Source of the DNA: an uncultured Bacteroidota bacterium
GTDB lineage: Bacteria; Bacteroidota; Bacteroidia; Chitinophagales; Chitinophagaceae
NCBI GenBank assembly: GCA_903829015.1
Contig: CAIKOJ010000063.1
Coordinates: 1 to 64,000, forward strand
DNA: 64,000 bases
Direction: 5' to 3'
In this document: one piece after another, positions 20,408 to 22,852 of the stretch
Numbering within the stretch: position 1 is the stretch's first letter
Layout of the letters: each line of letters starts with the position of its first letter
Made by a program: the position numbers and the translations under genes
The notes under the pieces: generated by a model
Seen by the model: only the letters and a program-made list of their open reading frames with translations
What the model was told of the DNA's origin: nothing
The model's database searches: none

Positions 20408-21541
20408 GTGCGGTCAGTATATATAACAAGACTTTCAAAATTTTTGCCTAACGAACCTGTTTCTAACGATCAGATGGAAGGAGTCTTGGGTATGATCAAC
20501 GGTAAACCGTCGAGAGCAAGGCGTATTGTGTTGAACAATAACGGTATCAAAACAAGGTACTATGCTATAAAAGACGGTAAGTTTACGCATACCAACACCC
20601 AGTTGGCTGCGAAGGCTGTAAGTATGCTGTTTGATGAAAAACTACCGCTTGAAAAGCTGGAACTTTTGGCCGCTGGCACTACCTCACCCGAGCAGTTGCT
20701 GCCATCACATGCCTCTATGGTTCATGGCGAATTAGGTACAAAAAACGTTGAATTAGTAAGTGTTGCAGGTTCTTGCTGCAGCAGTATACAGGCTTTAAAA
20801 TACGCTTTCATGTCGGTAGGCGCCGGACTATCTGATGTAGCTGCAAGCTGCGGTTCAGAGCGTATGTCTACCTGGCTTATGGCATCCCGCTATCAGTCGG
20901 AGGCCGATAGCTGGCAGGAAATGGAAAAGAATCCATATATAGCTTTTGATAAAGATTTCCTTAGGTGGATGCTCAGCGATGGCGCAGGTGCGGCACTCAT
21001 GCAGGGCACTCCTAATACCGATAGCATTTCGCTCAAAATAGAATGGCTAGAGATCAGCTCCTACGCCAATGAACTGGAAACCTGCATGTATTCGGGTGCT
21101 GTTAAGAATCCCGACACCTCACTTACCGGCTGGAATGACATGGAAGTAGCCCGCTGGGCGAACGAAAGTATATTCTCGCTGAAGCAGGATACCAAACTAC
21201 TAGCAGAGAACATCATCAAAAAAGGAGGGGAATTCCTGAGCAAGCTCATGAAAACCAACGGACTCACCGCAGACAAAGTCGATTATTTCCTCCCGCACAT
21301 GTCGAGCGAGTTCTTCAAAAAAGAAATGTATGCTACCATGGCATCTATAGGGCTCGAAATGCCTTACGAGAAGTGGTTCTACAACCTGCCTGCTGTAGGC
21401 AATGTAGGCAGCGCATCGGCTTACCTGATGATGGAAGAACTATTCCACAGCGGCAAACTGAAAAAAGGCGAGAAAATTCTCGTTATGATCCCCGAAAGCG
21501 CTCGTTTCACCTACGCATACCTGTATTTGACAGTTGTTTAA
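20408..21541 (+). CDS. Beta-ketoacyl-ACP synthase III-like enzyme, DarB type
   Basis: 377 residues from a GTG at 20408. The frame is open from a GTG at 20360, but the promoter element at 20381 and the family opening (VYITRLSKFLPNEPVSN) favour the later one. Thiolase fold with the Cys-His-Asn triad: AGSCCSSIQALKYA (Cys124 or 123), FLPHMSSEFF and AVGNVGSASAYL. The segment MINGKPSRARRIVLNNNGI is, from memory, characteristic of DarB ketosynthases of flexirubin and dialkylresorcinol clusters, which join two beta-ketoacyl chains into a ring. The DarA-like gene 385 bases downstream agrees with this. An ordinary FabH role is less likely. Confidence 0.8.
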   Translation: MRSVYITRLSKFLPNEPVSNDQMEGVLGMINGKPSRARRIVLNNNGIKTRYYAIKDGKFTHTNTQLAAKAVSMLFDEKLPLEKLELLAAGTTSPEQLLPSHASMVHGELGTKNVELVSVAGSCCSSIQALKYAFMSVGAGLSDVAASCGSERMSTWLMASRYQSEADSWQEMEKNPYIAFDKDFLRWMLSDGAGAALMQGTPNTDSISLKIEWLEISSYANELETCMYSGAVKNPDTSLTGWNDMEVARWANESIFSLKQDTKLLAENIIKKGGEFLSKLMKTNGLTADKVDYFLPHMSSEFFKKEMYATMASIGLEMPYEKWFYNLPAVGNVGSASAYLMMEELFHSGKLKKGEKILVMIPESARFTYAYLYLTVV

Positions 21542-21686
21542 TCGGTTGCTGGATGTTGCTTAATTAACGTATGTACAATGACTTCGCATCATTGTACCAG
21601 TATTTCTTTTAACCGTTTCTTCACGCCGGCAATTGCCCGATGTTATTGCATTAGCCTCACTTAGTGTATTTTTACGCTAAATATTA

Positions 21687-21914
21687 TTGAAGAGGTCTGT
21701 TTTCATTCCAGGATTGTCGGTATTTCAGCCCAATTCCCTCATATCCAACGGGGAAATAGAAGGAATACTGAATATGGTATGCGAACGGATTTCAAAAACA
21801 CAAATGACTGAATTGCGCAATAACGGCAGGCTCAGGAACGGTGACAATATACTGGTCAGGTTTCGGGAAAACGCACGCTTCACACACGGCTGTAGGCAAC
21901 TTACAGTCGTTTAA
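21687..21914 (+). pseudogene. Internally deleted ketosynthase (DarB paralogue remnant)
   Basis: 75-codon ORF from a TTG. Residues 3-46 align with the first 45 residues of the ketosynthase upstream (RSVFIPGLSVFQPNS against RSVYITRLSKFLPNE; SNGEIEGILNMV against SNDQMEGVLGMI), and residues 47-75 align with its last 29 (NILVRFRENARF against KILVMIPESARF, both ending LTVV). About 300 residues, including the whole Cys-His-Asn triad, are missing, but the two ends are joined in frame. It cannot be an active ketosynthase. Either it is a relic of a tandem duplication or a kept mini-protein. It ends 11 bases before the darA-like gene. Confidence 0.75.
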
Positions 21915-21925
21915 CGAAAAGATCA

Positions 21926-22852
21926 ATGAAACCAAAAATACTGGTAGTTTACTATACTCAAACAGGGCAGCTTAGGCAGATACTCGACAGCATCCTTTCC
22001 GGACTCAAAGACAAAGCCGAGATCGATTTCTACCGTGTAGAGCCGGTTAACCCTTTTCCGTTCCCATGGAATGCGTTGCGCTTTTTCGACACCATGCCGG
22101 AAACCGTAGTGCAGCTACCCTGCGAAATAAAACCGCTGGCACCATCAGTTAAGGATAAAAATTACGATCTGGTCATTCTCGGTTACCAGCCCTGGTTTCT
22201 AAACCCATCACAGCCCACAACAGCGTTCCTGCAAAGTGAATTTGTGAACCTGCTCAAAAACAAAAACGTGATCACTGTTGTAGGCTGCCGCAACATGTGG
22301 CTGCATGCGCAGGAGAAAGTAAAGGAATACCTCTCTGCAGCAAATGCCCAACTCGTCGGCAATATTGTACTTACCGATAGCAGCCCTAATCTCGTTTCAT
22401 TGCTCACGGTTATCCGCTGGGCGTTCAAAGGTCAGAAAGAAGCTTCGGGTCTTCTGCCTGCCGCAGGTGTTCAGGATGCCGACATAGACAATGCCAGCCG
22501 TTTCGGGCATATAATATACAAGCACCTGAATGAGAATTCCCTTGGCGATCTACAGTCAGAACTGCTGATGCAGAAAGCCGTGCAATTGCGCCCCGGACTT
22601 GTGATACTGGAGCAAAGAGGCATCAAGAACTTTAGATACTGGGCTAAGTTTATTCGCGAGAAAGGTGGCCCCGGCGACCCTAACAGGGCAGGCAGAGTAC
22701 TGTTGTTCAAAAACCTGCTGCTGGTGGGCATTTTCATATTGTCGCCTATTTCAGCACTCACCGCTAAGATCAAGCAATTCATCAAAAGAAAATCTTTGCT
22801 TCGCGATGTTGAATATTTCAAACAGGTGCAGTTTGAAAAGGGCAGGATGTAA
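21926..22852 (+). CDS. Dialkylresorcinol-pathway protein, DarA type
   Basis: 308 residues. The start ILVVYYTQTGQLRQILDSI resembles a flavodoxin-like phosphate-binding loop, and NPFPFPWNALRFFDTMPETV together with LVILGYQPWFLNPSQP fit what I remember of the DarA family (annotated as dialkylresorcinol condensing enzyme). In the described pathway DarB forms the ring and DarA is needed for the aromatic product. A hydrophobic helix near residues 265-285 (LLLVGIFILSPISALTA) suggests membrane contact. It follows the ketosynthase and its remnant on the same strand. Other flexirubin genes are absent from the window. Name is probable, not certain. Confidence 0.65.
   Translation: MKPKILVVYYTQTGQLRQILDSILSGLKDKAEIDFYRVEPVNPFPFPWNALRFFDTMPETVVQLPCEIKPLAPSVKDKNYDLVILGYQPWFLNPSQPTTAFLQSEFVNLLKNKNVITVVGCRNMWLHAQEKVKEYLSAANAQLVGNIVLTDSSPNLVSLLTVIRWAFKGQKEASGLLPAAGVQDADIDNASRFGHIIYKHLNENSLGDLQSELLMQKAVQLRPGLVILEQRGIKNFRYWAKFIREKGGPGDPNRAGRVLLFKNLLLVGIFILSPISALTAKIKQFIKRKSLLRDVEYFKQVQFEKGRM

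Follow-up and report, generated by a model that had tools for sequence, protein, structure and literature searches.

A 75-codon open frame between darB-like and darA-like genes of a Chitinophagaceae bacterium is very probably the decaying remnant of a second, tandem ketosynthase gene

Results and Discussion

The ketosynthase-darA locus

The window analyzed here is the 64,000-nucleotide stretch of contig CAIKOJ010000063.1 from an uncultured Bacteroidota bacterium of the Chitinophagaceae. It contains an intact DarB-type ketosynthase gene (KS1; positions 20408–21541, forward strand), which encodes 377 amino acids from a GTG start codon, scores 569.9 bits against the NCBIfam model resorcinol_DarB (cutoff 550), and aligns with its relatives over residues 1–377. 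KS1 is followed on the same strand by a 9-bp perfect inverted repeat (GTACAATGA...TCATTGTAC) with a T-rich tract behind it (21573–21597), a conserved block (21640–21684), and a short open reading frame (21687–21914) that runs from a TTG codon at 21687 to a TAA codon at 21912–21914 and comprises 75 codons without an internal stop. A darA-like gene of 308 amino acids (21926–22852, forward strand) begins 11 nt past that stop.

In a heterologous host, darB and darA of Chitinophaga pinensis yielded the dialkylresorcinol of a flexirubin, according to the available excerpt of the source (PMC3992019), and a comparable excerpt on Azoarcus labels DarB as DAR-cyclase and DarA as DAR-aromatase (PMC3949708). 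For the darA-like gene of the window, Pfam and NCBIfam gave weak flavodoxin matches only, so it is named from its position next to DarB in relatives. A plasmid search with its protein returned three Streptomyces plasmid records annotated as "hypothetical protein," and the name is therefore neighborhood-based. The sole plasmid match of the KS1-darA stretch was 70 bases long and lay in another DarB-family gene.

The short frame joins the two ends of a ketosynthase

The codon alignment places 21690–21827 of the short frame opposite residues 1–46 of a DarB-type ketosynthase, and 21828–21914 opposite residues 350–377 plus the stop codon TAA. Between the two parts, 303 codons (909 bp) are gone. The junction (codons AAT AAC GGC, 21819–21827) reads Asn-Asn-Gly, and the junction codon can be assigned to either side. 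The sequence-only reading of this frame as the ends of a DarB-type ketosynthase fused in frame, with the middle missing, is borne out by this alignment. The NCBIfam models resorcinol_DarB and StlD/DarB each match the frame in two stretches (E 5.4e-9 and 2.4e-8, respectively), and a Pfam scan of the frame gave no match. In a search of its own genome up to E 10, the frame otherwise matched nothing but the ends of the neighboring KS1, one at E 2e-6 and the other at E 3.8e-4.

Both ends of the remnant thus resemble the StlD/DarB family (NF053539, NF005293), whose cutoff the neighboring KS1 exceeds. The remnant itself falls far below the family cutoff (35.7 bits vs. 550; 75 vs. 377 amino acids), and it differs from the family in lacking about 80% of the protein, the presumed catalytic motifs and the aligned start codon. 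The Cys, His and Asn motifs, which begin at residues 123, 295 and 331 in both KS1 of the window and the second ketosynthase of its closest relative (the two proteins checked), fall within the deleted part. We take the residues concerned (Cys at about 123, His 297, Asn 332) to be catalytic in ketosynthases; with that assignment, the earlier claim that all catalytic residues are gone is upheld. The codon that aligns with the start of intact second ketosynthases (ATG in L035, GTG in L036 and L042) is AAG in the remnant, so the frame opens only at the TTG one codon upstream.

Relatives carry a full-length second ketosynthase at the same place

Loci of relatives were found with KS1 (10 loci) and with the darA-like protein (21 of 60 genomes, counting that of the window), in a sample of one genome per species; L035 (genome G032) and L004 were taken as one place, as were L036 (G027) and L005, and each place was counted once. 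Besides the window's genome, 14 genomes of the genus carry a ketosynthase gene directly upstream of darA (L035–L048), 11 of them a single gene and three a tandem pair. In the tandem loci (L035, G032; L036, G027; L042, G031), a full-length second gene (KS2) lies between KS1 and darA. KS2 therefore occupies the place of the remnant in three of the 34 other genus genomes, or in three of the 14 with a ketosynthase directly upstream of darA.

The KS2 genes of these nearest relatives (L004/L035, OMJB01000064.1; L005/L036; L042) share the KS1-darA gap with the remnant, but are intact, with 377 amino acids and no stop, against 74 codons in the remnant. Their products are 62–65% identical to KS1 of the window (62% for L035). 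L035 is the closest relative: its KS1 is 94.7% identical to that of the window, and a complete KS2 sits at the remnant's spot, with the same 11-nt spacing to darA. Full-length second ketosynthases at this position in related strains, which the sequence-only reading had named as pointing to a recent deletion and away from a functional short gene, are thus present, and the closest relative is among the genomes that have one. No further KS2 was found elsewhere in the remnant's own genome, a draft of 225 contigs that is 92.6% complete. L006, a locus obtained in the KS1 search and counted apart from the genus, has one ketosynthase. The GTG start of the window's KS1 is common to its counterparts in L035, L036 and L042.

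Parentage of the remnant

The phylogenetic tree comprised 19 in-group copies (18 from the genus, including KS1 of the window, plus L006), four outgroups and the remnant. KS2 formed a separate clade (SH-aLRT 99.9, bootstrap 100), and the 12 single-copy ketosynthases grouped with KS1 (support 90.7/95). It seems, then, that the ketosynthase of the single-copy genomes is KS1 and that KS2 has been lost from them. The tandem ketosynthases of L035, L036 and L042 belong to two old clades.

The remnant was sister to KS2 of L035 (SH-aLRT 93.7, ultrafast bootstrap 99), on a branch 1.09 substitutions per residue long, vs. 0.000002 for L035 KS2. A partial duplicate or hybrid of KS1, or an artefact of assembly, would agree with a remnant that both adjoins and resembles KS1; we nevertheless regard these explanations as barely credible. 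Placement beside KS1 of the window was rejected (AU p 0.0006), as was placement beside the KS1 pair (0.009), and among the 14 best placements and three beside KS1, all those outside KS2 had an AU p of at most 0.0185. Placement beside L036 KS2, still inside the KS2 clade, was not rejected (AU 0.077). Residue identity of the remnant was 46/74 to L035 KS2 vs. 34/74 to KS1 of the window, and both ends were closer to L035 KS2 (28/46 and 18/28 residues) than to KS1 (20/46 and 14/28). As for an artefact, KS1 and KS2 would differ too much for an assembler to merge them, and point decay would not be expected from a misassembly. By raw bases (out of 222; J=46), the remnant matched L035 KS2 at 150 positions, L037 at 138, L036 KS2 at 136, L006 at 133, L042 KS2 at 131 and KS1 of the window at 126, so that by this measure only L035 KS2 stands out, and L036 KS2 and L042 KS2 are no better than some single-copy ketosynthases such as L037.

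As judged from these sequence comparisons, the parent of the remnant is the second, tandem gene KS2 and not the neighboring KS1. It had been argued that the frame must be old since it shares little identity with the full gene. That argument fails because the comparison was made with the wrong paralogue: the low identity reflects the old split between KS1 and KS2, not the age of the deletion.

Decay and selection

The remnant changes 12 of 34 columns that are invariant in the 19 intact in-group copies, whereas in a leave-one-out control each intact copy changed 0–3 of 34–37 such columns. Identity between the remnant and L035 KS2 was 45% at third, 75% at first and 81% at second codon positions. 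With third positions the most diverged, KS2 seems to have accumulated much of this divergence while still under selection, before it was lost.

Since synonymous sites are near saturation, simple counting of dN/dS is unusable on its own, and a codon likelihood was computed for 73 codons of the joined ends under a simple model on a fixed tree, with the same near-saturation of synonymous sites. The likelihood was highest when about 0.2 substitutions per site were assigned to a neutral segment (interval at 1.92 lnL units, about 0.06–0.31). Dropping this segment cost 3.4 lnL units when branch lengths were free, and the functional branch then grew to 5.6 substitutions per site, compared with 0.44 for the KS1 branch of the window; with the functional branch capped at 2 or 1, the fit was 8.6 or 19 lnL units worse. 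A branch-length cap had inflated the rejection of zero neutral time (8.4 lnL units vs. 3.4 uncapped). On the remnant branch, omega = 1 (lnL −1409.37) was no worse than free omega (−1409.22), and the background omega was 3.1 units worse. The free estimate hit its bound (4.95), which leaves the rate on the remnant branch poorly constrained. Purifying selection on the remnant is relaxed or absent, and the contribution of the codon test alone is modest when branch lengths are unlimited (3.4 lnL units).

The persistence of an open frame had been regarded as noteworthy. As far as stop codons are concerned, this view does not hold: under simulated neutral drift (4000 trials each), the frame stayed free of stops in 62% of trials at 0.1 substitutions per site, in 42% at 0.2 and in 29% at 0.3, so that an open frame after about 0.2 neutral substitutions per site is not rare. 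By chance one deletion in three keeps the frame, and more would do so if same-frame repeats drive them. The view does hold to some extent for small indels, none of which was found in the 222 bp of the remnant. Calibration on seven intergenic pieces aligned with L004 gave 17 gap events per 163 substitutions. At that rate, a neutral phase of 0.2 substitutions per site should have left 4–5 small indels (Poisson p about 0.01), and one of 0.06 about 1.4 (p about 0.25). The lack of indels counts against a long, fully neutral phase: that phase may have been briefer, or constraint may in part persist. The lack of indels is not proof of function.

The short frame in other genomes of the genus

A protein search with the remnant covered 35 genomes of the genus, the window's own included. 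A short frame like the remnant was found in none of the 34 others, and the sequence-only proposal that the same short gene might recur in related genomes found no match there. In 16 of the 34 the remnant matched ketosynthases, all within frames of at least 377 amino acids; 17 gave nothing at E ≤1, and G026 had one lone match at E 0.99. Some of the 18 genus genomes without a ketosynthase are incomplete drafts. Three chance-level matches fell in frames of fewer than 200 amino acids (G031 C102 and an antisense match in G032, both with stops, and the one in G026). At the DNA level, a search across these 35 genomes gave matches at E <0.004 in the window and G032 only.

These searches bear on the suggestion that the frame encodes a small protein kept as a regulator or partner of the full-length ketosynthase. 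The open frame and its recognizable ends would fit such a role, but about 80% of the ketosynthase has been deleted, the short frame is confined to one genome among those searched, the aligned start is lost, residues invariant in 19 intact copies have been replaced, and a neutral omega was not rejected. The earlier proposal of a retained regulator or dimer partner is accordingly given up as highly improbable.

Sequences upstream of the remnant

The block at 21640–21684 is identical to L035 at 40 of 45 bases and is more conserved than the remnant itself (about 67%); a permutation test in which the best-scoring stretch was likewise chosen each time gave p 0.012. The block contains TATTTTTAC as part of an inverted repeat of 8 bp. 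In the KS1-KS2 gap of L035 this repeat is perfect and reads TTAGTGTA-TTTT-TACACTAA, the window differs from it at one base, and no stem of at least 6 pairs occurs in the corresponding gaps of L036 and L042. TATTTTTAC resembles the Bacteroidetes −7 promoter motif TAnnTTTG with one mismatch. From its sequence, the block is a candidate that perhaps represents an old KS2 promoter or operator.

The inverted repeat after KS1 (21573–21597) is terminator-like by consensus scan, with a fold z of −2.07, and is absent from the corresponding gap of L035, L036 and L042. As a dispersed repeat it was dismissed: the genome holds one exact copy and three with 3 mismatches, and a reversed control gave equally many.

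The remnant DNA could have been kept for the sake of darA, with the old KS2 promoter (within 21640–21684) driving the gene and the remnant acting as a leader cistron that couples translation, the peptide itself being irrelevant. The conserved block with its inverted repeat, the terminator-like hairpin present in the window but not in L035, L036 or L042, the 11 nt between the remnant's stop and darA, as in L035, and the lack of indels are all consistent with this. The aligned start codon is lost, however, and 11 single-ketosynthase genomes of the genus have darA 13–64 nt after the ketosynthase with no such leader. The block's inverted repeat is missing in L036 and L042, the arrangement occurs in one genome only, and the consensus matches are near chance (one promoter-like site vs. 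1.1 expected, two terminator-like sites vs. 0.7 expected). We consider this explanation unlikely. A scar that has turned regulatory, in which the promoter or operator of the dead KS2 and the truncated frame serve darA while a new terminator hairpin severs KS1, appears a shade less plausible still.

Probable course of KS2 loss

The 75-codon frame is, in our assessment, very probably a decaying pseudogene remnant of the tandem KS2, that is, an ordinary scar of gene loss. Our confidence owes most to three observations: relatives have an intact KS2, the tree puts the remnant with KS2, and invariant residues have changed. Of the two options in the sequence-only reading, it is the decaying duplicate, shortened by an in-frame internal deletion, that agrees with the intact KS2 genes, the tree placement, and the lost start and invariant residues.

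The ancestral arrangement in the genus would have been KS1-KS2-darA; most genomes that bear the locus now lack KS2. In the lineage of the window KS2 appears to have lost about 909 bp, probably after the split from its nearest known relative. In L004, the KS2 break points carry AACAATGG and AACAGTGG, which are alike at 7 of 8 bases and lie 909 bases apart in the same codon phase. The deletion may have arisen by slippage or recombination between these short imperfect repeats (AACARTGG), which encode Asn-x-Gly, and same-frame repeats at the break points would explain why it was in frame; repeats so short and imperfect can also be due to chance. The leftover 74 codons would then have lost the start codon and drifted. 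The TTG beside the lost start could still start translation, which is a counterpoint to decay. The remnant presumably makes no useful protein, and DarB function would be supplied by KS1. A surprising in-frame mini-gene can thus be an ordinary scar, and the locus suggests that a second DarB-type ketosynthase has been lost repeatedly within one genus and that the window preserves one of these losses at an intermediate stage.

Truncated matches in the family

In a draw of 195 genomes from the family, 57 matched the remnant at E 0.01 or less, with three other matches in frames of fewer than 300 amino acids. None of the three is a two-ended mini-ORF; all are part of longer ketosynthase genes. L073 (G209) gave one continuous ketosynthase match over residues 3–376 with a single in-frame stop at 96, L076 (G116) matched the ketosynthase in two pieces, and in L063 (G198) the match spans residues 1–270 and reaches the end of the locus. 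The DarB-type genes of L073 and L076 adjoin a darA-like gene and are broken copies or sequencing errors.
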